Part shown: positions 6,165 through 40,739 of the stretch, piece after piece
Numbering within the stretch: the stretch's first letter is position 1
Layout of the letters: the number at the start of each line of letters is the position of its first letter
Source: Pusillimonas sp. TS35
GTDB lineage: Bacteria > Pseudomonadota > Gammaproteobacteria > Burkholderiales > Burkholderiaceae_B
Direction: 5' to 3'
NCBI RefSeq assembly: GCF_009857885.1
Contig: NZ_WWER01000004.1
Location: forward strand, 124,001-188,000
Length of the DNA: 64,000 bases
The notes under the pieces: generated by a model
What the model saw: only the letters and a program-made list of their open reading frames with translations
What the model was told of the DNA's origin: nothing
The model's database searches: none
Position numbers and translations under genes: made by a program

Positions 6165-7352
6165 ATGCCGAACATATCCCAGACCGGTCGTTATCTCGTG
6201 CTCTTGCACCAAGACCATCCTCAGGAGGGCATCCAGGCGCTCGCTGATACGACTGGCGTGCGCGTTACCGAGGCAGCGGCGCACAAGGCAGGCGCAACCG
6301 TGCTTCCACCCGAGTGTGCCCTTGTCTTTTCCCGGATAGGTGTAGTGCTGGTACGGTGCGCGCAAGATCGACAGCCGGCGCTGGCTGGGTTGGCCGCGGC
6401 AGGCAGCAACATTCTGGCGATCGAAGCCGAACGCTTTGTGCATGCGTTGCCTGCCAGGTACCGGCCTGCAAAAGCCGCGCCCTCGTCCACGACTGCGGCT
6501 GACACGTGGGGCGTCCAGGCTGTCGGGGCGGGGCAGTCATCCTATACGGGAAAAGGCATTCGCATTGCCATCCTAGACACTGGATTCGACTTCTCGCACC
6601 CCGACTTTGCGGGCCGCGAAATTGTGTCGCGTTCGTTCGTGCAAGGTGAAGATGCGCAGGACGGCAATGGCCACGGTACACACTGCGCGGGCATCGCCGC
6701 CGGCCCGCGTGTGCCCATAAGTGGCCCGCGCTATGGCGTGGCGGGCGAAGCGCAGCTATACATCGGCAAGGTGCTGGGCAATGAGGGTGGCGGTGGCGAC
6801 GGCGGCGTACTCGAAGGCATCAACTGGGCCATTGAGAACAACTGCCAGGTCATCTCGATGTCGCTTGGTAGCGTGACTACGCCCGATCAACCCTATTCGC
6901 GTGTGTTCGAAGAAGTGGCGCGGCGCGCCATGGCGGCGGGCGCAGTGATTATCGCCGCTGCCGGAAACGACAGCGAGCGGCCCGACCACATCGCGCCGGT
7001 TGCGCACCCAGCCAACTGCCCCTCCATCATTGGGGTGGGCGCCATCGACGAGCTGCGCCGTGTGGCGCCATTTTCCAATGGCGGGCTGGTATCCGACGGC
7101 GGCAAGGTGGACATTGCCGCTCCGGGGGTCGCTGTGTTGTCCGCCTGGCCCGGGCCCCAAGGCTATAACAGCATCAGCGGCACCAGCATGGCCACACCGT
7201 TCGTGGCTGGCGTAGCAGCCCTCTATGCCCAGGCCGGTGCCGCCAACCGCGGCAAAGCCCTGGTTGATGTACTCAAAAACAATGCCACCAAGCTTGACCT
7301 CCCACCGCGCGACGTCGGCGCCGGTCTGGTGGCCGCACCTCACAAGGCCTGA
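6165..7352 (+). CDS. S8 subtilisin-like serine peptidase without signal peptide
   Basis: A 395-residue subtilase. The catalytic triad is complete: Asp138 (AILDTGFDF), His170 (NGHGTHCAG) and Ser341 (GTSMATPFVAG), with oxyanion Asn268 (AAAGND). Residues 1-95 precede the catalytic domain and have the look of an I9-type propeptide (strand YLVLLHQ, helix, strand GVVLVRC, helix, strand NILAIEAER). There is no signal peptide or membrane segment, so the enzyme may act in the cytoplasm or leave by a non-classical route. A small gene follows after 14 bases and encodes a protein that itself resembles an I9 propeptide/inhibitor, suggesting a protease-inhibitor pair. The substrate is unknown. Confidence 0.9.
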   Translation: MPNISQTGRYLVLLHQDHPQEGIQALADTTGVRVTEAAAHKAGATVLPPECALVFSRIGVVLVRCAQDRQPALAGLAAAGSNILAIEAERFVHALPARYRPAKAAPSSTTAADTWGVQAVGAGQSSYTGKGIRIAILDTGFDFSHPDFAGREIVSRSFVQGEDAQDGNGHGTHCAGIAAGPRVPISGPRYGVAGEAQLYIGKVLGNEGGGGDGGVLEGINWAIENNCQVISMSLGSVTTPDQPYSRVFEEVARRAMAAGAVIIAAAGNDSERPDHIAPVAHPANCPSIIGVGAIDELRRVAPFSNGGLVSDGGKVDIAAPGVAVLSAWPGPQGYNSISGTSMATPFVAGVAALYAQAGAANRGKALVDVLKNNATKLDLPPRDVGAGLVAAPHKA

Positions 7353-23340: not shown

Positions 23341-24324
23341 ATGCGTGTTTTATTTTCGGCCCTTCTCGGCTGTACCCTGTCGCTGTCGTTCGCTTCATAC
23401 GCAATAGCGAATACCGCCGACTATCCCAATAAGCCCATTCGTTTCGTCGTGCCGTATCCTCCTGGCGGCTTGGGAGACACTTTCTCCCGCGCGCTGGGGC
23501 GGGGCCTGGCTGAACAGTTGGGGCAGCCAGTCATCGTGGAAAACAAACCCGGCGCGAGCCAGGTCATCGGCGCGGAACAGGTTCTCCGGGCCCCTGCGGA
23601 TGGCTATACCCTGTTTTTGTCGTCGATGACGAGTTTGGCGACCAATCTGGGTTCGCATAGCCAGCTTTCCTACGATCCGATCAAAGACTTCGCCCCTGTC
23701 AGCAAGCTGTTTTCGTCAGCGTTGTATCTGGCCGTGAAGTCGGATTTGCCCATTAAAAGCGTGGCGGATCTGGTGAAGGAGGCCAAAGCGCAGCCAGGTA
23801 CGCTGTCTTACGCGTCGCTGGGGCTGGGCGGTAGTCTGCATTTGGCGGGCGAGCTGTTTTCCCAAGCTGCCGGCATTAATATGCTGCACGTTCCTTATAA
23901 GGGGAGTGTGCCTGCGCTTACTGATGTCATGGGCGGTGTCGTCACGATGATTTTTGATGGCGGATCGACAGTTGCTCCACAGGTAAAGGCAGGCAAACTG
24001 CGGGTGTTGGCCGTAACCGGCAAGCAGCGTTCGTCGATCGATGGGCTAGAGAATGTGCCCACCATGGCTGAGGAAGGTTTCCCAACTGTGGACGTTGGCG
24101 TGTGGTGGGGCCTGTCAGTGCGCGGCGGCACGTCCGACGCCATTGTTGAACGTCTGTCTAAAGCGGTGAATGTCGTCATCAACGAGCCGCAGTTCCGCAG
24201 TTCTCTGAGCGGCACCGGGATGGACATCCAGGGGAGCACACCCAAGGAATATGGCGAGTTCATCGAGAGCGAGGCCGTGCGCTGGCCGGCATTCATGAAG
24301 CAGATAGGTGTCGTGCCGCAATAA
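23341..24324 (+). CDS. Bug-family tripartite tricarboxylate transporter substrate-binding protein
   Basis: A 327-residue periplasmic protein with a signal peptide (residues 1-23). It carries the family motifs YPNKPIRFVVPYPPGGLGDT and QLGQPVIVENKPGA, and the later HVPYKGSVPALTDVMGG. Bug proteins bind carboxylates and are greatly expanded in Bordetella and relatives, mostly without dedicated membrane partners; none is encoded here. It is the first gene of an operon with CoA-transferase genes, so it probably captures the acid degraded by this cluster. The candidate IclR site is 72 bases upstream of the start. Confidence 0.93.
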   Translation: MRVLFSALLGCTLSLSFASYAIANTADYPNKPIRFVVPYPPGGLGDTFSRALGRGLAEQLGQPVIVENKPGASQVIGAEQVLRAPADGYTLFLSSMTSLATNLGSHSQLSYDPIKDFAPVSKLFSSALYLAVKSDLPIKSVADLVKEAKAQPGTLSYASLGLGGSLHLAGELFSQAAGINMLHVPYKGSVPALTDVMGGVVTMIFDGGSTVAPQVKAGKLRVLAVTGKQRSSIDGLENVPTMAEEGFPTVDVGVWWGLSVRGGTSDAIVERLSKAVNVVINEPQFRSSLSGTGMDIQGSTPKEYGEFIESEAVRWPAFMKQIGVVPQ

Positions 24325-24333
24325 GGGGCAGTC

Positions 24334-25023
24334 ATGCTAAACAAAGTACGCCAGTCGGTTCGGGAAGCGCTGGACGGGATCTTTGATGGTGCCACGATTC
24401 TGGTTGGCGGCTTTGGCGGTGCGGGCCTTCCGTACGAGCTTGTGCATGCGCTGATTGACCAGGGTGCCAGCGACCTCACCATTGTGAACAACAATTCGGG
24501 TACGGGCACCGATGGCCTCACGGCGCTGGTGGCTGCGGGCCGGGTCAGGAAAATGATTTGCTCCTTCCCCCGCGCCGCCGATCCTAGAAGTGATCCGAAT
24601 ATCTTTCAGTCGTGGTATCGGGCGGGAAAGGTGCAGCTCGAGGTTGTGCCGCAAGGCACCATCGTAGAGCGCCTGCGCGCCGCTGGCGCGGGGATAGGCG
24701 GGTTCTACACGAAGGTCGGTGCTGGAACCGTGATGGCCGAAGGCAAGGAAACCCGTGAGATCGATGGGTGTGAGCATGTGCTGGAGTACCCCCTGCAAGG
24801 GGACTTCGCACTGATCAAGGGCGACATGGCTGATCGGTGGGGCAATGTCACGTACCGCAAGGCCGCAAGAAACTTTAATCCCGTGATGGCCATGGCTGCG
24901 ACAACGACGATTGCGCAGGTGAGTGAAATCGTCGAGCTGGGAGAATTGAACCCAGAGCACGTTGCGACACCCGGTATTTTTGTACAGCGCGTGGTGAGAC
25001 TAATTCCTGAAGCAAGGGGCTGA
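24334..25023 (+). CDS. 3-oxoacid/3-oxoadipate CoA-transferase subunit A (PcaI/AtoD-like)
   Basis: A 229-residue alpha subunit of a class I CoA-transferase. The N-terminal motif TILVGGFGGAGLPYELVHAL and the later GAGIGGFYTKVGAGTVMAEG and ARNFNPVMAMAA are those of PcaI/AtoD. With the next gene it should move CoA from succinyl-CoA or acetyl-CoA to a free oxo- or dicarboxylic acid. It starts nine bases after the Bug stop behind AAGGGG, and the B subunit follows after two bases. No other beta-ketoadipate gene is nearby, so the acceptor may differ from 3-oxoadipate. Confidence 0.9.
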   Translation: MLNKVRQSVREALDGIFDGATILVGGFGGAGLPYELVHALIDQGASDLTIVNNNSGTGTDGLTALVAAGRVRKMICSFPRAADPRSDPNIFQSWYRAGKVQLEVVPQGTIVERLRAAGAGIGGFYTKVGAGTVMAEGKETREIDGCEHVLEYPLQGDFALIKGDMADRWGNVTYRKAARNFNPVMAMAATTTIAQVSEIVELGELNPEHVATPGIFVQRVVRLIPEARG

Positions 25024-25025
25024 TA

Positions 25026-25736
25026 ATGTCGTCCACACCTATTATGTCTTCCGTGCCAATCGCAGGCCTGGGCCGGGACCAGATTGCGGCCCGTGTAGCC
25101 CGCGATATTCAGGACGGCTGGTACGTCAATCTTGGGATTGGCGCACCGGAACGCGTGGCCAACTACATTCCGCACGACAAGGATGTCATTCTGCATAGCG
25201 AGAACGGCATTCTTGGCATGGGGGAAACCGTGCCGTCCGCTGAGGCCGACTGGGATTTGATCAATGCGGGCAAGCGTCCGATCAGCCTGTTGAACGGCGG
25301 TGCATTTTTTGATCATGTGGTTTCGTTCACCATGATGCGTGGCGGGCATCTCGACTTGTGTCTGCTCGGCGCGTACCAGGTGTCGCAGTGCGGCGATCTG
25401 GCAAATTGGTGGACGGGTGGTGAAGAGATGCCTGCTGTGGGCGGTGCAATGGATCTTGTGACTGGCGCGCGGCGCCTTTTCGTCATGATGGATCATGTCA
25501 GCAAGGCGGGTGAGCCCAAGATTGTCGGTGCGTGCACGTATCCCTTGACCGGCCGTAAGGTTGTTGACCGCATATACACCAATCTGGCCGTGATCGATGT
25601 GACCGATGAGGGGCTGTTGGTTCGCGAAATGGTGGAGTCCCTGACATTCGATGCGTTGCAGGCATTGACCGGTGCGCCGATACATCCGGCGGCCGATATG
25701 GGCGTCTTGTCGATGACAGAGGAGGCTGCGCGATGA
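25026..25736 (+). CDS. 3-oxoacid/3-oxoadipate CoA-transferase subunit B (PcaJ/AtoA-like)
   Basis: A 236-residue beta subunit carrying the catalytic Glu in the HSENGILGMG motif (about residues 57-66), which forms the glutamyl-CoA thioester. YVNLGIGAPERVANY, MMRGGHLDLCLLGAYQVS and AVGGAMDLVTGARR match PcaJ closely along the whole length. The family length is normal. It overlaps the next gene by four bases (ATGA). Confidence 0.9.
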   Translation: MSSTPIMSSVPIAGLGRDQIAARVARDIQDGWYVNLGIGAPERVANYIPHDKDVILHSENGILGMGETVPSAEADWDLINAGKRPISLLNGGAFFDHVVSFTMMRGGHLDLCLLGAYQVSQCGDLANWWTGGEEMPAVGGAMDLVTGARRLFVMMDHVSKAGEPKIVGACTYPLTGRKVVDRIYTNLAVIDVTDEGLLVREMVESLTFDALQALTGAPIHPAADMGVLSMTEEAAR

Positions 25737-26134
25737 ATGGTGCACACTCGTCCAGCCCTGAGGCGGGCGCGGAGCAACAGTATTTTGCGTTCATACGCGC
25801 CGGACAATGGAAAATCCAGCGCTGCCTATCCTGTAGCCGTCATGTTTTTTATCCCCGGCAGTATTGCCCTCACTGTCACAAAGATTCCTTCGAGTGGGTC
25901 GCGCCCAAGGGCGGCGGCACTGTGTACTCTCTGACCCAGGTGGCATCTCGCGATGGCGATGGCCCTGTGGTCCTGCTGGTGGATCTTGATGAAGGCGTTC
26001 GTGTCATGGGTGGTGCATGCGTCGATGATATGGCGCACATCCGCATAGGCTCACGCGTCACGGGCGGGCTTGCCGCCGGCGATGAACAGGGATACATCAT
26101 GTTTGAACCGGAGCATCCAGCGCATGACATCTAG
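25733..26134 (+). CDS. Zn-ribbon OB-fold (DUF35) acyl-CoA-associated protein
   Basis: A 133-residue protein with a rubredoxin-like zinc knuckle (CLSCSRHVFYPRQYCPHC, Cys pairs near residues 30-55) followed by an OB-fold. DUF35 proteins bind acyl-CoA and act as partners of thiolase or SCP2-like proteins encoded next to them, as seen here: the next gene overlaps it by 11 bases. In steroid and acetone pathways such pairs form aldolases, thiolases or HMG-like enzymes. The exact reaction is not predictable. Confidence 0.88.
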   Translation: MNGAHSSSPEAGAEQQYFAFIRAGQWKIQRCLSCSRHVFYPRQYCPHCHKDSFEWVAPKGGGTVYSLTQVASRDGDGPVVLLVDLDEGVRVMGGACVDDMAHIRIGSRVTGGLAAGDEQGYIMFEPEHPAHDI

Positions 26135-27290
26135 CAAAATCAGGGGCTCTGTTGCCGTATGCGGCGTGGGAACCGCAGGGCTTGGCGAAGCGGCCGGGTA
26201 TACGGAATTGGAGATTCTTGCGCAGGCCGCGCACCGGGCGGTCGAAGACGCCGGCCTCGAAATGGATGAGATTGATGGCTTGATGACGGCAAGCTTCAGC
26301 CGTTTCCTGCCAGGCCTCGCCGTAGCAGAGTACTTGGGCATCCGGCCGGCATTCATGGATAGCAGTAACGTGGGCGGGGCCTCCTACGTCAACTACTTGC
26401 TCAGTGCGGCGCTCGCGCTCAACGCGGGGCTTTGCAATGCTGTGCTCGTCTGTTACGGAAGCACCGCACGCACCCAACACGATTTTCGGGAGCATATTCA
26501 GGCCCGGGCGAAGCTCGAGCCTCAACCCTATGAGGCGCCTTACCGGCCATATAATCCGCCCTCATCATATGCGCTGGCGGCCGCGCGGCATATGCATGAG
26601 TTCGGCACCACGCGTGAAGACCTTGCTCACGTGGCGGTTGCGGCGCGCAAGTGGGCACAGATCAATCCCGATGCGTTCATGCAGGACCCGCTTTCGCTCA
26701 ACGATGTGCTTGCATCACGCATGGTCAGCACGCCCCTGTCCGTTCGGGATTGCTGCCTGTTGACCGATGGGGCCGGTGCTTTCGTCATGATGCGCGCTGA
26801 TCGGGCCCGATCAGCGCCTCGGGCACCCGCTTACTTGCTGGGTGCGGGGGCGTCGCAGTCTCACAGGCAAATATCAGCCATGGCCGACCTGACCACGACC
26901 TCGGCGGTCGAGTCGGGGCGCCAAGCCTACGCCATGGCTGGCCTGCGGCCTTCGGACATCGACATGCTGCAGCTTTACGATGCATTCACCATCAACGTGA
27001 TTCTGTTTCTGGAGGATCTGGGGTTTTGCAAGAAGGGTGAGGGCGGCGCGCTGGTGAGCAGCGGCGCCATTGCCCCCGGCGGCAGTCTGCCAGTCAATAC
27101 CAATGGCGGAGGATTGTCTTGCGTGCATCCAGGGATGTATGGTGTTTTCACGGTCATTGAAGCCGTGCGACAGATGCGTTCGGAGGCGGGGCAGCGGCAG
27201 GTACCGGGCGTGGAAACGGTTCTGTGCCATGGCAACGGCGGCGTATTAGCCAGCCAGGTGACCGCTATCCTGGGGGTTGCCCCCGACTGA
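26124..27290 (+). CDS. Thiolase-fold protein (SCP2/lipid-transfer-like), nucleophilic Cys absent
   Basis: A 388-residue thiolase-fold protein paired with the DUF35 gene it overlaps. The first half has VAVCGVGTAGLGEAAG and a second-site segment reading SNVGGASYVNYLLSAALALN, where a true thiolase would carry its acyl-accepting Cys; here it is Gly-Gly-Ala-Ser. The C-terminal half keeps a His (CVHPGMYGVFTVIEA) and the Cys of VLCHGNGGVLAS. The loss of the first Cys is typical of SCP2-type proteins that work with DUF35 partners as retro-aldolases rather than as thiolases. The start ATG at 26124 is chosen by overlap with the preceding gene. Confidence 0.82.
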   Translation: MTSSKIRGSVAVCGVGTAGLGEAAGYTELEILAQAAHRAVEDAGLEMDEIDGLMTASFSRFLPGLAVAEYLGIRPAFMDSSNVGGASYVNYLLSAALALNAGLCNAVLVCYGSTARTQHDFREHIQARAKLEPQPYEAPYRPYNPPSSYALAAARHMHEFGTTREDLAHVAVAARKWAQINPDAFMQDPLSLNDVLASRMVSTPLSVRDCCLLTDGAGAFVMMRADRARSAPRAPAYLLGAGASQSHRQISAMADLTTTSAVESGRQAYAMAGLRPSDIDMLQLYDAFTINVILFLEDLGFCKKGEGGALVSSGAIAPGGSLPVNTNGGGLSCVHPGMYGVFTVIEAVRQMRSEAGQRQVPGVETVLCHGNGGVLASQVTAILGVAPD

Positions 27291-27330: not shown

Positions 27331-28155
27331 CTAGAAACGCTGGAACGGCGCCATGAATGCCTCGAGGTTTTTTACCAGCGAGAGCAGGCGTGGCCCGATG
27401 TCATTCTGGAGCGTGCCCTCCTGGCATTGAAAGGCGTGCACAACGCAGTTGAACACAATCAGTTCATCGCGTTTGCCGTGGAACGGCACGCCCACACCAT
27501 ATACATCGGGCAGGATTTCACCCTCTGACATGCAGAAGCCATAGCGGCGGTAGTCCTCAATGCTTTTCAGCACTGCTTTGTGGTGTTGTTCCCACTCCTT
27601 GGGCTGCTGGACTTTAAGCGTGTTGAGCAATGTCTCACGTGCGGGCGCCTGCAGGCCGCATAGATAAGCCCTGCCGATGGCGCTGCCAGCAAGTGAAACC
27701 GATAGCCCGATATCTGACATCCTGGTATTGAAAATGGAACGGTGGCGGCTGGTTTCGATATAGGTAATTCGCAAGCGATCCAAAACACCCATTGAAACCG
27801 ACCCCTGAATGGCCTCGGCCAGTTCGCTCATCATCGGGCGGGCAAATTGGCGTATCGCTATGTTTGCCAACAGGGGATAGCCAATTGACAAGACGGCTGT
27901 TCCCAATTGGAACTTGCCCGAGTGTTTATCGGCGGCCATGTAGCCAAGGCGCGTCAGCGTGTACGTGAACCTGGATACCGTCGATTTGGACATGCCCAGC
28001 ATGTCTGAAAGTTCTTTGTTGCTGAGGACGGGCCGATCGGGTGTGAAGGCAGACAACAGCTCCAGCCCCTTTGCGAGTGTCATGGCGAACTGAGGATCCC
28101 CGTCATAGTCTTCCAGCCGTTGGCTGCTTTGTTCTATCGCGGAAAGATAAGTCAT
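27331..28155 (-). CDS. IclR-family transcriptional regulator of the surrounding catabolic operons
   Basis: A 274-residue regulator. The helix-turn-helix is near residues 27-90 (LAKGLELLSAFTPDRPVLSN; MLGMSKSTVSRFTYTLTRLG), and the effector domain includes SVSMGVLDRLRITYIE and SLAGSAIGRAYLCGL. It lies between two operons that point away from and towards it. A 17-bp palindrome occurs 15 bases upstream of its start and again before the Bug gene, so it probably controls both operons and itself. The ATG at 28155 is preferred to a TTG at 28188, which would place the coding start over the palindrome. Confidence 0.9.
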   Translation of the reverse strand: MTYLSAIEQSSQRLEDYDGDPQFAMTLAKGLELLSAFTPDRPVLSNKELSDMLGMSKSTVSRFTYTLTRLGYMAADKHSGKFQLGTAVLSIGYPLLANIAIRQFARPMMSELAEAIQGSVSMGVLDRLRITYIETSRHRSIFNTRMSDIGLSVSLAGSAIGRAYLCGLQAPARETLLNTLKVQQPKEWEQHHKAVLKSIEDYRRYGFCMSEGEILPDVYGVGVPFHGKRDELIVFNCVVHAFQCQEGTLQNDIGPRLLSLVKNLEAFMAPFQRF

Positions 28156-28169
28156 ATATGTTGTACAGC

Positions 28170-28196
28170 GTTTTGATATTCGAAACAAAGATAGAT
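28170..28196. promoter_or_regulatory. Candidate IclR operator in the IclR / rubredoxin intergenic region
   Basis: GTTTTGA-TAT-TCGAAAC (28170-28186) followed by AaAGATaGAT. It matches the element at 23252-23278 over 27 positions with few differences. It lies between the divergent IclR and rubredoxin starts. Confidence 0.65.
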
Positions 28197-28267: not shown

Positions 28268-28558
28268 ATGCAGCCTACCGCCACCACAGCCACCATCGCC
28301 ACCGCAGCCGCAACCCCAGCCGCGACGGCAACCGCCACCGCAACCGCAACGATAGAGGCAGGTGTTATCGCCGGCACATCTCAGGGGACGGCCACGGTTA
28401 CGTGGATGTGCGTTTTGTGCGGTTGGATATATGACGAAGCGTACGGTGATCCGGCTGGTGGAGTGCCTGCGGGCACGCGCTGGGAAGATGTGCCCGATTC
28501 ATGGGTGTGCCCTGATTGTGGTGTGGGCAAAGACGAATTCATCATGGTTCAAGTCTGA
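28268..28558 (+). CDS. Rubredoxin with Thr/Ala-rich N-terminal extension
   Basis: A 96-residue protein. The C-terminal half is a normal rubredoxin with iron-binding pairs Cys48/Cys51 ([17 protein letters not shown]) and Cys81/Cys84 ([13 protein letters not shown]). It carries one electron at a time and resembles AlkG/RubA-type rubredoxins. Residues 3-28 are almost only Thr and Ala, coded by imperfect GCCACC/GCAACC repeats, and are not part of the family. No good ribosome-binding site precedes the ATG. An inner ATG at 28406 would begin one residue before the first Cys and is unlikely. It is the first gene of the Rieske oxygenase operon, which ends with a rubredoxin reductase gene. Confidence 0.88.
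28277..28352 (+). repeat. GCCACC/GCAACC low-complexity repeat in the rubredoxin 5' end
   Basis: About 75 bases of imperfect six-base units built from ACC, GCC and GCA triplets, read in frame as Thr/Ala. Slippage here could change length without harming the metal-binding domain as long as multiples of three are gained or lost. Confidence 0.7.
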
Positions 28559-28603
28559 CGCCCGGCACCGGACGCGGATATTTTGACGCAAGGAAAAATC
28601 ACA

Positions 28604-29956
28604 ATGCTAAGCAAGGAAGACAACGAGATCCTGACGCGCACGGGCGCATCAACCCCTATGGGCGAGTTGTTTCGCCGTTTCTGGATGCCGGTTATGTTGT
28701 CGCAGGAACTGGATGTTCCCGGCGGCACCCAGAAAAGGGTCACAGTATTGGGAGAGGATCTGCTCGCGTTTCGAGACACGACTGGCCGGGTCGGCCTGGT
28801 GGAGCCGGTTTGCCCACATCGTGGCGCAAACCTGTATTACGGGCGCAACGAAGAGGGCGGTCTGCGCTGCGTGTTCCACGGCTGGAAGTTCGACGTCGAT
28901 GGCAACTGCGTAGACCTGCCCACCGCTCCCTGTAATTCGTCGTACAAAGATCGCATCAAGATCAAGTCATATCCCACGCGTGAGGCGGGCGGCTTCGTCT
29001 GGGCATATCTGGGTTCGGCGGAAATACCGCCTGAGCTTCCGCAGATGGAGTTCACCCTTTTGCCCGCGTCGCATGTTTTCGTGTCCAAAAAGTGGCAGGA
29101 TTGCAACTGGGCCCAGTGTCTGGAAGGCGCTATTGATACCGCCCACTTCTCATTTCTGCACATGGTGGTTCCGCAAGTCGGCGAAGATGCGGCCAGCCTC
29201 ATGGCGCATGCCGCGATCGGTTCGCAGAGCGTGAAGAATGATCGGATCCGCTGGGTGCAGGAAGACCCGCGGCCTAGGTTTGAGATCAATGAATTTCCCG
29301 CAGGGCTGACAATCGGCGGAGCGCGCCTGGCGGGAGAACAGGATCGCTACTGGCGCATCGCACAGTTTCTGGCCCCCAACCACGCCCTTGTTCCAAGCGC
29401 CTTTCCAGGCGAGAACTACCATGGCCAGACATGGGTGCCAGCGAGCGACACGTCGTGCTGGATCTACAACTACACATGGAATCCCGATCGGCCGCTCACT
29501 GAAGAAGAGCGCGAGGCATGTCGCAAGGGCTTGACCGTGCATGCCGAAGTTGATGAAAACTATATCCCGCTGCGTGGGCCCCATAACGATTACTTGCTCG
29601 ATCGTGAAGCGCAGAGGCTTAACAGCTACACCGGCATCCAGGGTGTGTCCGAACAGGATGCGGCTATTCAGAATAGCCAGGGCCCCATCGTGGATCGCTC
29701 GCGCGAAAATCTGGGCGCCACGGATGTCGGGCTGCTGCGTTTTCGCGAATACATGCTCAAGCGAGCCAAAGCGCTGGCGAATGAGGGCAAAGAGCCTAAT
29801 GAGCCTGCTTGTTCCGAATACTATGCCGTGCGTTCGGGCGGCTGGGTCGCCCACGACAGTAAAAAGCTCGAACAGGTTATGGTTGAGCGGTTTGGCCACA
29901 AGTTTGGTCATGTCAATGCCCAGAGGCTGAAGGAAAATCAGGAGGCGTCGGCATGA
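28604..29956 (+). CDS. Rieske [2Fe-2S] oxygenase alpha subunit, phthalate-dioxygenase type
   Basis: A 450-residue oxygenase component. The Rieske cluster ligands are in CPHRGA (about residues 65-70) and CVFHGWKF (about 86-93). The mononuclear iron site includes the EGAIDTAHFSFLHM segment. The N-terminus (TPMGELFRRFWMPVMLSQEL) and the whole Rieske region follow phthalate 4,5-dioxygenase and its relatives. It should hydroxylate or O-demethylate an aromatic or other cyclic acid with O2 and two electrons. An in-frame TTG at 28583 exists, but ATG 28604 has AAGGA eight bases upstream. No ferredoxin/flavin reductase of the usual kind is nearby; rubredoxin and rubredoxin reductase genes flank it in the operon. 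Confidence 0.92.
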   Translation: MLSKEDNEILTRTGASTPMGELFRRFWMPVMLSQELDVPGGTQKRVTVLGEDLLAFRDTTGRVGLVEPVCPHRGANLYYGRNEEGGLRCVFHGWKFDVDGNCVDLPTAPCNSSYKDRIKIKSYPTREAGGFVWAYLGSAEIPPELPQMEFTLLPASHVFVSKKWQDCNWAQCLEGAIDTAHFSFLHMVVPQVGEDAASLMAHAAIGSQSVKNDRIRWVQEDPRPRFEINEFPAGLTIGGARLAGEQDRYWRIAQFLAPNHALVPSAFPGENYHGQTWVPASDTSCWIYNYTWNPDRPLTEEEREACRKGLTVHAEVDENYIPLRGPHNDYLLDREAQRLNSYTGIQGVSEQDAAIQNSQGPIVDRSRENLGATDVGLLRFREYMLKRAKALANEGKEPNEPACSEYYAVRSGGWVAHDSKKLEQVMVERFGHKFGHVNAQRLKENQEASA

Positions 29957-30729
29957 GGCTGGACAGGTTGCGTGCCAGTATGACGGAAAAAAGCCGGCTG
30001 TTTGGGCTGTTCTGCTGTTCGTATAGCGTGCAGGCTGTAGAGGCGATCGCAGACAGCGGGTATGAGTTTCTGATCTTCGATACAGAACATTGCCCCAACG
30101 ACTTCATCAATTTGCATGCACAGCTTCTGGCGCTTGCAGCCAGCCAGACTGCCGCAGTCGTGAGGACAAATGGCGTTGACAGCGCTCAGATCAAAAAGCT
30201 GCTGGATCTGGGCGTCCATGCCTTGATGGTGCCCAATATCGAGACGGCCGATCAGGCTCAAGCCGTGGTTGACTGCTGTCGCTATGCACCCGCCGGACGC
30301 CGTGGTGTTGCAGGCAGTGTACGCGCGTTGAGTTACGGCCGCGACAAGCTGTTGCCGGGGCAGGCGCCGGCAGGCCCAGTCATTATGGTTCAAGCCGAGA
30401 GCCGCAGTGCGCTGCGAGCTATCGATGCCATCGCGGAAGTCGACGGTGTTGATGTCGTATTCTTCGGCCCCAATGATTTGGCGGCCGATATGGGGTTGCT
30501 GGGCCAACCCGGTCACCCGGACGTAGTGAGCGCGATCACCAAAGGCATTTCGCAGGTGCGTTCCGCAGGCAAGTACGCGGGTGTGCTGGCAAGCGAACAT
30601 GCTTGCGGCCCGTATTTTGAGGCGGGCGCGAATATGGTCGCGCTGGGTTCTGAAATAGGGTTGCTAGTGGCAGGTGCAGACAGTTTGCGGCAACGCGTAA
30701 CGCGCTACGACGCGCTGTGCCTGTCATGA
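29953..30729 (+). CDS. HpcH/HpaI-family aldolase (metal-dependent)
   Basis: A 258-residue TIM-barrel enzyme of the HpcH/HpaI family that cleaves 2-oxo-hydroxy acids, usually to pyruvate plus an aldehyde. FLIFDTEHCPND, VRTNGVDSAQIKKLLDLGVH and MVPNIETADQA follow the family; metal ligands are the Glu in VMVQAESRSALRAI and the Asp of FFGPNDLAADMG. It overlaps the oxygenase stop by four bases (ATGA) behind AGGAGG, so it is translationally coupled and should act late in the same pathway. Confidence 0.9.
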   Translation: MRLDRLRASMTEKSRLFGLFCCSYSVQAVEAIADSGYEFLIFDTEHCPNDFINLHAQLLALAASQTAAVVRTNGVDSAQIKKLLDLGVHALMVPNIETADQAQAVVDCCRYAPAGRRGVAGSVRALSYGRDKLLPGQAPAGPVIMVQAESRSALRAIDAIAEVDGVDVVFFGPNDLAADMGLLGQPGHPDVVSAITKGISQVRSAGKYAGVLASEHACGPYFEAGANMVALGSEIGLLVAGADSLRQRVTRYDALCLS

Positions 30730-31499
30730 CCGCAGCTCGGCGTCATGCGTTGGTGTTGGCTTCCAGCACCGGTATTGGTCATGCCTGTGCGGCTTCGCTC
30801 GCGCAGGCGGGCCATTCCGTATGCCTGAATGGCCGCGATCCAGTGCGTCTCCTGGCGGCCGCGGATCAGATCAGACTCCGGTGTGCGGAGGCTGCCGTTT
30901 CGTATTGTGCGGCGGATCTGAACACGTGTGAAGATCGCGACAAGGTCGTGCAGCAGGCGGGGCACGCGGACATCCTGGTTCTGAATATGGGTGGACCGCC
31001 AGTAGGCAATCAGACGCTTTCGCTCGCCGAGTGGCAGGCGGCGTTCGATTCGATATTCATGCCGATGACTGACATTCTCGACCGGATTCTGCCCGGCATG
31101 ATTGCGCGCAGCTGGGGCCGGGTCGTCATGATATCTTCCGCCGCTGTGCGGCAGCCCATACCGAATCTCGTTGTGTCGGGCGTGTTTCGTACCGGGCTTG
31201 CCAGCCTGCTGTCAGTGCGGGCCGTCCAGGTGGCGCGCTATGGTGTCACCATCAATTCGCTGCTGCCCGGACGCATTCTGACGGACCGGCAGAACCGGGC
31301 CCTGGAGCGCGAGGCAGCGCAGGCGGGTATCACCAAAGATGCGCAGCTGGCAAAAGTATCGGAATCCATCCCTATGGGCCGGCTGGGTACGCCCGAAGAA
31401 ATGGGTAATGTCTGTGCATTCCTGTGCAGCGAGGGCGCCAGTTACGTGACCGGCCAAAACATCCTTGTCGATGGTGGCGCGTTCCGCGGCGTGTTCTGA
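30726..31499 (+). CDS. Short-chain dehydrogenase/reductase family protein with altered active site
   Basis: A 257-residue Rossmann-fold SDR. The cofactor segment is ALVLASSTGIGHACAASLAQ, followed by LNMGGPP and the end motif TGQNILVDGGAFRG. The usual Ser-(Tyr-x-x-x-Lys) is not kept: after VVMISSAAVRQPIPNLVVSG, the Tyr and Lys positions read Ser and Arg (SGVFR). A subgroup of SDRs with this S-x-x-x-R replacement exists. Whether the protein is a working dehydrogenase is unclear. The start at 30726 overlaps the aldolase stop (ATGA); an in-frame GTG lies nine bases upstream. Confidence 0.85.
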   Translation: MTAARRHALVLASSTGIGHACAASLAQAGHSVCLNGRDPVRLLAAADQIRLRCAEAAVSYCAADLNTCEDRDKVVQQAGHADILVLNMGGPPVGNQTLSLAEWQAAFDSIFMPMTDILDRILPGMIARSWGRVVMISSAAVRQPIPNLVVSGVFRTGLASLLSVRAVQVARYGVTINSLLPGRILTDRQNRALEREAAQAGITKDAQLAKVSESIPMGRLGTPEEMGNVCAFLCSEGASYVTGQNILVDGGAFRGVF

Positions 31500-31544
31500 A
31501 GCGGGCGCGCAATAGTTCAACAGTTTTTCGAGAAAGAGGTCGCT

Positions 31545-32519
31545 ATGACTGTCAGTGATTTACCTATTGAAGATATCGAGTCCGCAATTGCAGGGCTCGA
31601 AATGATGTACAGCATTCGATTCCTGGAGGAGAAGATTACGGAGCTGCGCAAGCAGCAAATCATCCAGGGTTCGGTGCATCTTTGCATTGGCCAGGAGTCG
31701 ATCTATACCGGTGCGCTGCAAGCCTTGCGGCAGGGCGATCAGGTATTTTCAACATACCGCGGCCATGGCTGGGCCATGGCTTGCGGCGTGCCTGCCAGCG
31801 CCATCCTGGCGGAGCTTCTCGGACGCCAGACGGGCGTCAATCAAGGCCGTGGCGGATCCGCATACTTCAGTGCGGCGGATTGGGGATTCTATGGTGAAAA
31901 CTCGATCGTCGGCGCTGGTGCTCCGATTGCCTGTGGCGCGGGCCTGACCAACAAACTGCGCGGCAGCGGCGCAGTTGCGCTGACTGCTTTTGGCGATGGC
32001 GCCATGAACCAGGGTGGGATTCATGAGGCAATGAACTTTGCCGCATACCTGAACCTGCCGGTGATATTCGTATGCGAAAACAACATCTATTCGGAACTGA
32101 CGCCGATTGCCGACATGACGCGAGACGCCAATCTGTATAAGCGCGCAGCCGCCTACGGGATTCCGGGCGTGCGTATTGACGGAAATGATCTTCAGGCTGT
32201 GCGCAATTGCGTATCGGAGCATGCGCAGGCCGCTCGCGAAGGAAAGGGCCCGGTGCTGATAGAAATGATGACGCAGCGGTTGGTTGGGCATTACTACGGG
32301 GACATGCAAAGTTACCGCCCCCGCGGCGAGCTGACCGAAGCCAAAAAGCGCGAACCCATTTTGCGCCTTCGCGAAAAGCTTGCGTCGGCCGGCATCCCCG
32401 TGGAGCGCCTGGCGAAAATCGAAGCCGATGCCCGTGAGGCTATAGAATCCGCCGCCCGCACCGCGCTTGACGCGCCGCTGGCCGACACCAATACCGTTCT
32501 GGAGCACCTTTATGCGTAA
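31545..32519 (+). CDS. Thiamine-dependent 2-oxoacid dehydrogenase E1 alpha subunit (acetoin/pyruvate type)
   Basis: A 324-residue alpha subunit. The TPP-Mg2+ motif is GDGAMNQGGIHEAMNFAAY to ENN (about residues 147-178), and TYRGHGWAMACGVP carries the family's phosphorylation-loop-like region. Similar proteins are AcoA of acetoin dehydrogenase and PdhA. With the next gene it forms an alpha2beta2 E1 that decarboxylates a 2-oxo acid or cleaves a diketone. No E2 or E3 gene is present in the window, so acyl acceptor subunits must come from elsewhere or the enzyme works differently. Confidence 0.9.
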   Translation: MTVSDLPIEDIESAIAGLEMMYSIRFLEEKITELRKQQIIQGSVHLCIGQESIYTGALQALRQGDQVFSTYRGHGWAMACGVPASAILAELLGRQTGVNQGRGGSAYFSAADWGFYGENSIVGAGAPIACGAGLTNKLRGSGAVALTAFGDGAMNQGGIHEAMNFAAYLNLPVIFVCENNIYSELTPIADMTRDANLYKRAAAYGIPGVRIDGNDLQAVRNCVSEHAQAAREGKGPVLIEMMTQRLVGHYYGDMQSYRPRGELTEAKKREPILRLREKLASAGIPVERLAKIEADAREAIESAARTALDAPLADTNTVLEHLYA

Positions 32520-33522
32520 CGATATTCAGAATTCCGTCGTTGAACTGAACTATGGCAAGGCAATCAACGCAGCGCTGCGTCGCGCCATGTCCGAGTTTCC
32601 CGACACGGTGCTTTTCGGCGAAGATGCGGGCAAGCCCGGCGGTGTATTCGGCATCACGAAAGACCTTCAGGCTGCATTCGGTCAGGATCGTGTGTTCGAT
32701 ACGCCGATCTCCGAGACGGCGATGCTGGGCACAGCGGTTGGCGCTGCCATGACGGGCCTGCGGCCCATTGTGGAAATCATGTGGATCGACTTCAGCCTCG
32801 TTGCGATGGATCAGATCGTCAATCAAGCGGCCAACGTCCGGTACGTCTCCGCTGGAAGGCTTGGGGCGCCGCTCACGATCCGTACGCAACAGGGTGCGCT
32901 TCCGGGCTCATGTGCCCAGCATTCCCAGAACCTCGAAGCCTTCTACGCGCATGTGCCAGGATTGCGCGTTGGCATTCCAGCCACCGCTCAGGACGCTTAC
33001 TCGATGACGCTCGCCGCCATCAAGAGTGATGATCCAACGTTGGTGATAGAGAACCGGGGGCTATACCATGGCGCCAGCCAAACGGTTGAAATTGATGGTG
33101 ATATCGAAGCTGCGGAAGGCGCCCGCATTGCGCGCGAGGGTAGCGACATCACCATTGTGACGTGGGGCGCCATGCTCGGGCAGGCGCTGGCCGCCGCCGA
33201 GGAGCTGGCGGCTACCCACGGGATTTCCGCGGAAGTCGTAAATGCCCGTTGGGTTGCGCCTTTCGACTGGCAGGCGCTGGACAAGAGTGTGGCGAAAACT
33301 CATCGCCTGCTGATTGTCCACGAGGCCAATGTGACGGGCGGATTTGGCGCCGAGATCGCGGCGCGTGTCCAGGAGAAGCACTTCCGCAATCTGTCGGTGC
33401 CAGTGCGCCGTCTGGGTGCGCCCGATGTGCGTATGCCGGCCGCGCCGCATTTGCAGCAAGTGCTCATTCCGGGTGCTGCGCAGATTCGCGACGCCGCGGT
33501 CAGTATGACGCAACCTGAGTAA
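32512..33522 (+). CDS. Thiamine-dependent 2-oxoacid dehydrogenase E1 beta subunit
   Basis: A 336-residue beta subunit (PdhB/AcoB type). VLFGEDAGKPGGVFGITKDL, DTPISETAMLGTAVGAAMTG and the C-terminal swivel domain (IVTWGAMLGQALAAAEEL; LLIVHEANVTGGFGAEIA) are all normal. The start ATG overlaps the alpha-subunit stop by eight bases, an arrangement typical of stoichiometric co-translation. It should take part in TPP binding together with the alpha subunit. Confidence 0.9.
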   Translation: MRNDIQNSVVELNYGKAINAALRRAMSEFPDTVLFGEDAGKPGGVFGITKDLQAAFGQDRVFDTPISETAMLGTAVGAAMTGLRPIVEIMWIDFSLVAMDQIVNQAANVRYVSAGRLGAPLTIRTQQGALPGSCAQHSQNLEAFYAHVPGLRVGIPATAQDAYSMTLAAIKSDDPTLVIENRGLYHGASQTVEIDGDIEAAEGARIAREGSDITIVTWGAMLGQALAAAEELAATHGISAEVVNARWVAPFDWQALDKSVAKTHRLLIVHEANVTGGFGAEIAARVQEKHFRNLSVPVRRLGAPDVRMPAAPHLQQVLIPGAAQIRDAAVSMTQPE

Positions 33523-33555
33523 CAGCGTAGTTCGCCCGCGCTCGGCCAGTGGCCC

Positions 33556-33609
33556 TTGGCCATTGACGAGTGGCCATTGACCATTGACTATTGAGCATTG
33601 ACAATTGGC
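33556..33609 (+). repeat. CCATTGAC short repeat cluster between E1 beta and rubredoxin reductase
   Basis: GGCCATTGAC occurs twice (about 33558 and 33572), followed by CCATTGAC, TATTGAG and CATTGAC, all within 54 bases. It lies in the 161-base gap inside the operon. No function is assigned. Confidence 0.6.
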
Positions 33610-33683
33610 CGCTGAGCGCGGGTTGTCGGGGCATCCATTGTTGGATGCCTTGCATGGAGCATGTATCCACATAAGGCATATTA

Positions 33684-34891
33684 TGAGCGTCGCACCTGTC
33701 GCAATAGTGGGAACGGGACTCGCAGGCTATACCATCGCGCGGGAGCTGCGTCGCCTGGATAGCCAGGTTCCCATTTCCCTGTTCACGCTGGACGAGGGGC
33801 ATTTTTATTCGAAGCCCATGCTGTCTAACGGTATATCAGCGGGCAAGGACGCTGCCTCGTTGCTCGGCAAGGTTGTCGGAAACATGCGTGAACAATTGGG
33901 GGTGCAGGTTCATGCCCGCTCTGTCGTGCAGTCCATTCGGCCTGACAAACACGAACTCGTCGTCAACGATGCGGTGTTCTCCTACAGCAAATTGGTGCTG
34001 GCGGTTGGCGCGGATCCAGTGCGGCTTTCGCTGGGTGGCGACGCATGCGACCGCATTGTGTCCATCAACAATCTGACGGATTACGGCCAGTTGCATGCGC
34101 AGTTGAATCAGGCGCGACGCGTCGTTATCCTTGGCGCGGGGTTGATAGGCTGCGAATTTGCCAATGACCTGGCACGCGCAGGCCACCATATAACGCTTGT
34201 TGAGCCCGCTTCCTGGCCACTCAATCGGCTGCTGCCCGCCGACATTGGCGCTCAATTGAAGGCAGCGCTCACGAGCGCTGGCGTTGATGTGCGCTGCGGC
34301 GCATCCTGCGATTCGGTGGACAGCGTAGACACGGCATTGCTCGTGCGCCTGTCGGATGGCTGCCAATTGCAGGCGGATGTTGTCATTAGTGCCGTGGGCT
34401 TGCGCCCCAACGTCGCGCTTGCGCAGGCGGCCGGCCTTGCGGTGGACAAAGGCATTGTTGCAGACCGCTTTCTCCAGACCAGTGCACCTGATATCTACGC
34501 GCTGGGTGATTGCGCACAAGTCGATGGCGCATTGTTGCCGTACGTTATGCCGATCATGCAGTGCGCTCGGGCACTTGCCGCGACACTGGCCGGAAATCCG
34601 ACGGCCGTTAATTACCCTGCGATGCCCATTGTCGTGAAAACGCCCGCACTCCCCTTGGCCATCGCGCCGCCCATGGTGAATGATGGCCAGTGGAAGACGG
34701 AAGCGGTCGGCGAAGGCGCGATCAGGGCAACATATCTGAATGCCAAAGGACAGCCCACGGGATTCATTGTGGGCGGAAACATGCTGGCTGAGTATCGCAA
34801 GCTGGCTCCAACAGTGCCGCACTGGCTGGAGCCCTTGGAACCAGGTATGGATAACCAGCGGGCGGCAGTTCAGCCGGTGTTGGCTCAGTAG
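33684..34891 (+). CDS. Rubredoxin-NAD(+) reductase-like FAD-dependent oxidoreductase
   Basis: A 402-residue two-dinucleotide-domain flavoprotein. The FAD motif is VAIVGTGLAGYTIARELRRL at the start, the NAD motif VVILGAGLIGCEFANDLARA lies about a third of the way in, and the second FAD motif ends with DIYALGDCAQVDG. The phrases YSKLVLAVGADPVRLSLGGD and AGLIGCEFANDLARAGH resemble Acinetobacter/Pseudomonas rubredoxin reductase (RubB/RubR), not the ferredoxin reductases of most Rieske systems. It should pass electrons from NADH to the rubredoxin at the head of this operon. The start at 33684 is the ATG just before the FAD motif. The gene ends seven bases inside the tail of the convergent aldolase gene. 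Confidence 0.88.
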
Positions 34892-39551: not shown

Positions 39552-40739
39552 ATGCGGGAGGGCGATACCTCTTTGTTCACCAGCGCCAGCGCCGGCACCA
39601 ACACCCACACCAGCACCAACACCAACACCGGCAATAGCGCTCATACCGGCACCAGTATCGACGCCGTCCCGAGCCCGCTGGAGGGCTGCCCGGCGACGGC
39701 ACGGGTGGGCGCGCGTCTGCGCTTCAGCGCCGCGATGGACACCGCTCGCGTGGCGGCCTGTTTTATGGTGGTGCTGTTGCACGTCGCAGCGCGTAATTTC
39801 AGTGTGTTCGACGATAGGTGGTGGGCCAGCAATTTCTATGATTCGATCACCCGCAGCTGCGTGCCGCTCTTTCTGATGCTGACGGGCGTGCTGCTGCTGA
39901 ACAAGCAGGAAGCCTTGCGTGACTTCTTCCGCAAGCGATTTGTGCGCGTGCTGCCACCGCTGCTGTTCTGGTCGCTGTTCTATATGGCGTGGAATGCATG
40001 GCATGGCGAAGGCTACGGGCCGTGGTACGGGTGGCTGCGCGCCGTGGCCAATGGGCCGGTTACTTTCCACCTCTGGTATCTCTATGCCATTGTCGGTATC
40101 TATTTGTTTGTGCCGTTCCTGCGCAAGATCTGGCACGCTACCGGGCCAGCCGAGAAGAAGATCTACCTGGGCTTGTGGGTGGCCGTGTCGTGCTGGCCTA
40201 CCGTGCGTACGCTGCTGGGGATCGAGACAGACCTGCTCGAGGTATACGGAGCTGGCAATTTCTTTGGCTTGGCCGGCTACCTGTTTCTAGGTGCGTATGT
40301 GTACGAATGCTTCCAGCGCCAGGGCGACAAACGTCGCTACGTGCTGGTCAACGCCGGCCTGTTCGCCGTGTTTGCCGTGCTGACCATGTTGGCAACCTAC
40401 GCGTACTCGCTGCGCGAAGGCGCTCCCGATCCGCTGTTCTACGATTATCTTTCACCGTTTGTATTGGCGTCGTCGGTCTGCGCCTTCAACGTCCTGTACG
40501 GGTTGGGCTCGAAAAGCGTCAGCCTGGCCGTGCCGCTGCGGCGCGCGTCCGCCTGCACCTTGGGCGTCTACTGCATCCACATCTTCGTCCTGCAACGCAT
40601 GGATGATGCGACGAGCCTGCTGTCGGGCGCCCGCTCGCAATGGTGGTCCATCCCCTTCATGGCGGCCTGTGTGTTTGGCCTTTCGATGCTGGCCATCATG
40701 GCATTGCGCCGCTTCAGGCCGTTTACCTATGTGACTTAG
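39552..40739 (+). CDS. Acyltransferase family 3 membrane protein (O-acetyltransferase-like)
   Basis: A 395-residue integral membrane protein of the acyltransferase-3 family with about ten helices. The catalytic-type His lies in FMVVLLHVAARNF (the family's Arg/His motif), with RSCVPLFLMLTGVLLLNK following. WecH of E. coli and OatA-like proteins have the same core; they O-acetylate surface sugars. Residues 10-36 are a Thr/Asn/Ser/Ala-rich stretch coded by ACCAACACC-type repeats and not part of the family. ATG 39552 has GGAG eight bases upstream; a second ATG at 39735 would remove the repeat and start just before the first helix. Confidence 0.85.
   Translation: MREGDTSLFTSASAGTNTHTSTNTNTGNSAHTGTSIDAVPSPLEGCPATARVGARLRFSAAMDTARVAACFMVVLLHVAARNFSVFDDRWWASNFYDSITRSCVPLFLMLTGVLLLNKQEALRDFFRKRFVRVLPPLLFWSLFYMAWNAWHGEGYGPWYGWLRAVANGPVTFHLWYLYAIVGIYLFVPFLRKIWHATGPAEKKIYLGLWVAVSCWPTVRTLLGIETDLLEVYGAGNFFGLAGYLFLGAYVYECFQRQGDKRRYVLVNAGLFAVFAVLTMLATYAYSLREGAPDPLFYDYLSPFVLASSVCAFNVLYGLGSKSVSLAVPLRRASACTLGVYCIHIFVLQRMDDATSLLSGARSQWWSIPFMAACVFGLSMLAIMALRRFRPFTYVT
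39580..39660 (+). repeat. ACCAACACC/AGCGCC low-complexity repeat in the acyltransferase 5' end
   Basis: About 80 bases of imperfect ACC, AAC and GCC triplets, in frame, encode Thr/Asn/Ser/Ala. It is similar in kind to the repeat in the rubredoxin gene at 28277-28352. Confidence 0.65.

Follow-up and report, generated by a model that had tools for sequence, protein, structure and literature searches.

Rieske oxygenases (ROs) are sorted by the proteins that deliver electrons to them, and finding these partners is a bottleneck in their use. Among the closest described systems, isophthalate dioxygenase (IPDO) works with its own reductase in a two-component system, according to the available text of PMC12445078, and LigXa is the oxygenase of the three-component DDVA O-demethylase, according to the available text of PMC12997858. 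Rubredoxin (Rd) has been associated with Rieske enzymes as well: the accessible part of PMC5209329 lists Rub1 with naphthalene dioxygenase and describes rubredoxin as crucial for o-xylene oxidation in Rhodococcus TKN14, that of PMC9361823 names three-component Rieske systems with rubredoxin, and that of PMC4591350 lists the Rhodococcus nar genes with rub1 and rub2. Here we analyze a stretch of 64,000 nucleotides of Pusillimonas sp. TS35 (hereafter the window, on contig C20 of a 4.10-Mb genome, G000), in which one operon encodes an Rd, a phthalate/LigXa-type RO and a rubredoxin reductase (RdR). We consider it likely that this is a catabolic operon in which a dedicated rubredoxin chain supplies electrons to an alpha-only phthalate-type RO.

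The locus shares features with each of these systems and differs from each. As in the Rhodococcus naphthalene (Nar) and o-xylene dioxygenases, for which the available parts of the sources give rubredoxin as carrier or required component, rubredoxin is presumed to be the carrier here; whereas those enzymes have large and small subunits, the enzyme here is an alpha-only phthalate/LigXa-type oxygenase in a proteobacterium, and no beta-subunit family occurs among the Pfam matches of the operon genes. In the present locus, an RdR gene lies within the operon. The RO resembles the isophthalate and phthalate dioxygenases of Comamonas testosteroni KF1 (9ina/9ioy and 7fjl), with the same Rieske and iron ligands as IPDO, but Rd and RdR stand here where IPDO, as far as its available description goes, has its own reductase. 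It shares with LigXa the LigXa_C domain (E 4e-40); in the LigX system, however, the ferredoxin LigXc and the reductase LigXd are encoded at other loci, whereas Rd and RdR lie within the operon here. Finally, Rd and RdR are of the same kind as in AlkB-rubredoxin-RdR systems and in the P. aeruginosa pair 2v3b/2v3a, but the presumed client here, unlike AlkB, is a soluble Rieske oxygenase. A preliminary description of this DNA, made from its letters, could match the combination to no described system, which was too strong, as rubredoxin-using Rieske oxygenases of Rhodococcus are in print (available parts of PMC5209329, PMC9361823 and PMC4591350). No report of a rubredoxin with an alpha-only phthalate/LigXa-type RO, or of an RdR in an RO operon, was found in our searches of an open-access library, subscription papers being outside their scope; as far as these searches reach, both are new.

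Rightward from a divergent IclR gene, the operon runs Rd, RO, HpcH/HpaI aldolase, short-chain dehydrogenase/reductase (SDR), E1alpha, E1beta and RdR. Pfam domains and cofactor motifs bear out the three redox proteins that the preliminary description had reported. It had also set the RO between the other two: the RO does adjoin the Rd, but four genes, those for aldolase, SDR, E1alpha and E1beta, lie between it and the RdR. The listed RO open reading frame (ORF) begins at a TTG at 28583, and the relatives favour the ATG at 28604. Its Rieske ligands (C70, H72, C89 and H92) are invariant in both oxygenase alignments, and, in a hand reading of the alignment with IPDO, the iron-site residues H181, H186 and D352 and the bridging D178 correspond to H177, H182, D337 and D174 of IPDO. 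The nearest solved fold is IPDO (9ina/9ioy, 39-41% identical; best Foldseek match 9ina, E 1e-37); phthalate dioxygenase and a Rieske oxygenase of Cupriavidus metallidurans are also among the closest solved proteins. The AlphaFold model of the RO has a pLDDT of 76.6, with weak segments at 179-220 and 316-361. Arg234 and Thr175 of IPDO, which bind the isophthalate carboxylates according to the available text of PMC12445078, are retained as Arg251 and Thr179, whereas IPDO His257 is replaced by Gln275. The substrate is thus probably carboxylated and aromatic, as judged from these residues, but not necessarily isophthalate; it may differ from that of IPDO because His257 is Gln275 here.

The Rd carries two iron-binding pairs, CVLCG and CPDCG, and two CxxCG pairs define the AlkG2-type rubredoxin in the available text of PMC8918992; its best match in the Protein Data Bank is P. 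aeruginosa rubredoxin 2 (2v3b chain B). Counted from predicted starts, 45 residues precede the conserved W-x-C in the window Rd, 25-27 in three other records and 20 in Comamonadaceae bacterium G21597-S1 (genome G510, RO locus L101), as compared with 3 in the window genome's second rubredoxin. The extension in the window Rd is lengthened by a CGCAAC-type repeat (28277-28350); a tandem repeat of CACCAA type with the same 18-bp period occurs at 39595-39633, in an ORF further right. We rejected the operon Rd as the housekeeping rubredoxin, that copy being a 54-residue protein at C22:232406, beside a phosphomethylpyrimidine-kinase gene (PF08543); the 20-kb stretch around it holds no RdR match. The Rd core of G21597-S1 shares 57-71% identity with the operon Rds, as compared with 55% for the housekeeping Rd of the window genome.

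The RdR lies in an ORF at 33605-34891 with a likely ATG start at 33680. Among solved proteins its best relative is 2v3a, the rubredoxin reductase of P. aeruginosa, with 318 bits over residues 29-397; putidaredoxin reductase reaches 122 bits and the ferredoxin reductases of dioxygenases 116. The protein scores under the NCBIfam NorW cut-off (345.6 vs. 392 bits). A BphA4/TodA-like ferredoxin reductase is ruled out by PF18113 and by the score gap; the earlier assignment to the RubB/RubR type therefore stands, as domain and score place the protein among rubredoxin reductases rather than ordinary ferredoxin reductases. Substitution estimates show purifying selection on both Rd and RdR (dN 0.18-0.43; dS 2.4-3.9 where computable, that is, saturated). 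A 309-residue ORF with a C-terminal rubredoxin domain adjoins an RdR gene in another genome (G348, L201:10419-11345; PF00301 E 1e-17).

The complete row Rd-RO-aldolase-SDR-E1alpha-E1beta-RdR is present in four records: the window, Allopusillimonas ginsengisoli KCTC 22046 and SBSA (G320 and G321, of the same genus as the window genome) and Pollutimonas harenae JCM 16917 (G449). The arrangement is not accidental: three other genomes keep the row with every gene in place, and we rejected a chance neighbourhood on this ground and because an Rd beside a phthalate-type RO is otherwise rare. Of 268 genomes of the family, searched at E 1e-60, 54 have an RO homolog and 25 an RdR match. Identity to the RO is at least 76% in four of them, window included (100, 85, 84 and 76%), and these genomes also hold the four best RdR matches (100, 63, 60 and 54%; the fifth 46%); two other genomes of the genus have neither at this limit. 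The probability of this co-occurrence by chance is 4.8e-9 if genomes are taken as independent, which they are not, as only two genera are involved.

In further scans, an Rd precedes the RO in 4 of 80 loci of a named-genome scan (35 of which are shorter than 21 kb), namely in both A. ginsengisoli strains, P. harenae and G21597-S1, and in 4 of 59 loci of a short-flank set, namely the window and three organisms already counted. In all five cases the Rd immediately precedes the RO. Rubredoxin-pattern matches in Bradyrhizobium and related loci and in L089, as well as two Rieske-pattern matches in L244, were judged false by eye. The pairing of Rd and RO proposed in the preliminary description thus recurs, and the full row with RdR is found in three further records. 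In G21597-S1 the RO is 64% identical, the Rd stop lies 18 bp before it, and the operon reads IclR/Rd-RO-tctC-aldolase-E1alpha-E1beta; the best RdR match in this genome is 30% identical and there is no recognisable RdR. Because G21597-S1 has Rd beside RO without a recognisable RdR, the Rd goes with the RO rather than with the RdR. In a sample of 399 genomes from its family, an RO homolog at E 1e-120 occurs in five, and none of these adds another Rd-linked RO.

The oxygenase tree (30 rows, with stop positions set to X, one in L102 and four in L156) contains a supported group (97/96) of eleven sequences that holds all five Rd-linked ROs; its members with a named family belong to the Alcaligenaceae or Comamonadaceae. 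Rd presence requires two label changes on this tree, corresponding either to one gain with losses or to two gains. Homologs were found in 91 plasmid records, all below 60% identity. Many loci of Reyranella, Enhydrobacter and related organisms (L105-L138) hold two oxygenase ORFs, each about 60% identical to that of the window.

The sequences show which three proteins these are, what cofactor residues they have, and that their genes are linked and occur together across genomes. The chain that we consider most likely, in which the protein contacts, the direction of electron flow, the reaction and the substrate are inferred, is as follows. NAD(P)H would reduce the FAD of RdR, which would hand single electrons to the FeS4 centre of Rd; Rd would then dock on the RO and reduce its Rieske [2Fe-2S] cluster; from there, electrons would cross the subunit interface via Asp178 to the mononuclear iron of the neighbouring subunit, where O2 would be activated and a carboxylated, probably aromatic substrate hydroxylated.

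Several observations weigh against such a dedicated chain. Rubredoxin potentials lie somewhat above those of Rieske clusters, such that the transfer could be uphill. RdR is less conserved (54-64%) than RO (77-86%), and G21597-S1 pairs Rd with RO although it has no recognisable RdR. The closest sister operons, those of Variovorax and Pigmentiphaga, are similar but have no linked Rd; therefore, Rd is not generally needed by this type of oxygenase. RdR is possibly transcribed separately, because a 157-bp gap with a 7/21-bp repeat and a promoter-like match precede it; promoter-like matches, including the one in this repeat, are no more frequent than in shuffles, and terminator-like matches number 12 vs. 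7.2 (sd 2.6) in shuffles. Moreover, the RO could be served by either of two VanB-type reductases that the window genome encodes as free-standing proteins, one at C1:17226 and the other, beside a MOSC protein and a tctC, at C22:7205.

These reductases bear on the main rival, in which a VanB/PDR-type flavin/[2Fe-2S] reductase encoded elsewhere feeds the RO, with Rd and RdR present as passengers or as an accessory redox couple; we regard it as unlikely. The two-component design of IPDO, the closest solved relative (available text of PMC12445078), and the sister operons that lack Rd are in keeping with it. However, Rd and RdR stand at opposite ends of the same operon in four records, a fifth genome keeps Rd with RO without a recognisable RdR, and the C1:17226 reductase adjoins a LigXa_C-type RO of its own. 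Because the other such oxygenase (on C1) has an adjacent VanB-like reductase, the window operon stands out even within its own genome. The earlier observation that no flavin/ferredoxin reductase or Rieske ferredoxin lies nearby was upheld, as neither an FMN/[2Fe-2S] reductase match nor a second Rieske protein is near the operon. Other loci likewise speak for the dedicated chain: in L086 and L088 (RO 53-54% identical) the second gene past the RO encodes a reductase, called VanB-like, in which an NAD-binding and a [2Fe-2S] domain are combined, and a VanB-like reductase also lies within 1.5 kb in the more distant L032, L044, L074 and, in part, L033. P. harenae has no recognisable free-standing VanB-type reductase, its sole match above 31% identity to the VanB-like query being a P450 fusion; this lack is weaker evidence, because the VanA-type RO of P. 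harenae, too, is without a reductase within 1.5 kb, a further point against the dedicated chain. VanB-like domains also occur in long frames (771-809 residues) of all four full-operon genomes, including C20:233296-234243 of the window genome and C2:127946-128896 of P. harenae; both long frames inspected contain the P450 heme motif, with a Pfam p450 match in that of P. harenae.

The usual clients of an Rd-RdR pair are AlkB or stress proteins, and it is conceivable, though improbable, that the pair here works for an AlkB-type hydroxylase, for a protein that detoxifies peroxide or oxygen, or for some other step of the pathway and is simply co-regulated with the RO. Our control search of 369 genomes of the class speaks both ways: among the 30 rubredoxin loci listed from its best matches (5 of them shorter), 9 have a neighbouring RdR but lack a Rieske protein, in keeping with this explanation, and a Rieske protein lies within 1.5 kb at the window's locus only, in favour of the dedicated chain. 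Against this explanation, four AlkB motifs, applied to desaturase-family matches, were found in none of the six such matches of the window, A. ginsengisoli and P. harenae genomes (the window genome has one, FA_desaturase-family). The same test was positive in G21597-S1, where an AlkB-type protein (frame of 560 residues, C68:22195-22830, L262) has all four motifs and no rubredoxin pattern within 1.5 kb; because this genome carries AlkB, its Rd has another possible client, which again counts against the dedicated chain. Within the operon we recognised no further client for rubredoxin; rubrerythrin, flavodiiron proteins and the like were outside this search.

That RdR reduces the RO directly, or reduces a ferredoxin encoded elsewhere, with Rd not being the carrier, is very improbable in our judgement: Rd lies directly before RO in all five cases, one of them without a recognisable RdR. 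What speaks for it is a locus in which an RdR-type reductase with Rbx_binding (L199:9239-12534 on G446:C4; PF18113 E 2e-22) stands directly before a different RO (PF00848) and a Rieske ferredoxin; the surrounding 20-kb stretch showed no rubredoxin. This arrangement is perhaps a second recruitment of an RdR-type reductase.

The coordinates of the operon and its surroundings are collected in the table.

Table. Genes of the rubredoxin-Rieske oxygenase operon and adjoining features in the window
Feature	Coordinates	Strand	Basis
Upstream block: tctC-like solute-binding protein, CoA-transferase A/B, ChsH2-like OB-fold protein, thiolase-like protein	23341..27290	+	
IclR-family (PcaR/PobR-like) regulator, divergent to operon	27331..28188	-	PF09339/PF01614; TIGR02431 under its cut-off
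Rubredoxin, AlkG2-like, two CxxCG, N-terminal extension lengthened by 18-bp/6-bp repeat	28268..28558	+	PF00301 E 6e-22; alignment
Phthalate/LigXa-type Rieske oxygenase, 450 aa from conserved ATG	28604..29956	+	PF00355 E 6e-19, PF19301 LigXa_C E 4e-40
HpcH/HpaI-type aldolase	29953..30729	+	PF03328 E 2e-40; 4 bp overlap with oxygenase stop
Short-chain dehydrogenase/reductase (SDR)	30717..31499	+	PF13561 E 1e-35
2-oxoacid dehydrogenase E1 alpha-like	31545..32519	+	PF00676 E 2e-74
2-oxoacid dehydrogenase E1 beta-like	32512..33522	+	PF02779/PF02780; start = ATG kept in relatives
Rubredoxin reductase, two-dinucleotide flavoprotein with Rbx_binding	33680..34891	+	PF07992, PF18113 E 3e-19; 2v3a E 8e-94

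There is also an overlap between aldolase and SDR, and the genes from SDR to E1beta either overlap or lie almost end to end. The full-operon loci and L098-L104 all retain a divergent IclR gene next to the RO. The upstream block, which probably belongs to the same catabolic locus as the operon, is also found upstream in both A. ginsengisoli loci, while P. harenae keeps tctC alone. The E1alpha/E1beta-like genes (31545-33522) accompany this oxygenase in several genera, and no E2 or E3 partner gene was seen in the operon. The G+C content of the operon genes is 58-62%, that of the window 61%; in P. harenae the operon has 52.8% and its flanks 56.4 and 53.1%, and in A. ginsengisoli KCTC 22046 the operon has 58.7% and its flanks 54.0 and 53.1%, a contrast that could be a sign of transfer. 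A subtilase-family protease gene lies at 6165-7349 of the window (PF00082, E 2e-52).

Taken with the sister genomes, which run the operon without them, Rd and RdR look like a later addition to it. We give even chances to the stronger proposal that a lineage of alpha-only phthalate-type ROs swapped its flavin/[2Fe-2S] donor for an obligate Rd-RdR chain and that the N-extended Rd co-evolved for docking; if true, this would be a natural swap of redox partners within one otherwise constant catabolic operon. The sister operons, which have the same pathway without rubredoxin, offer a ready comparison for the surface features that set partner choice, and the three-protein redox set is small and directly reconstitutable. 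If a phthalate-type enzyme does use a rubredoxin chain, the partner range of this class would be wider, and the operon suggests that such enzymes can change the protein that delivers their electrons.

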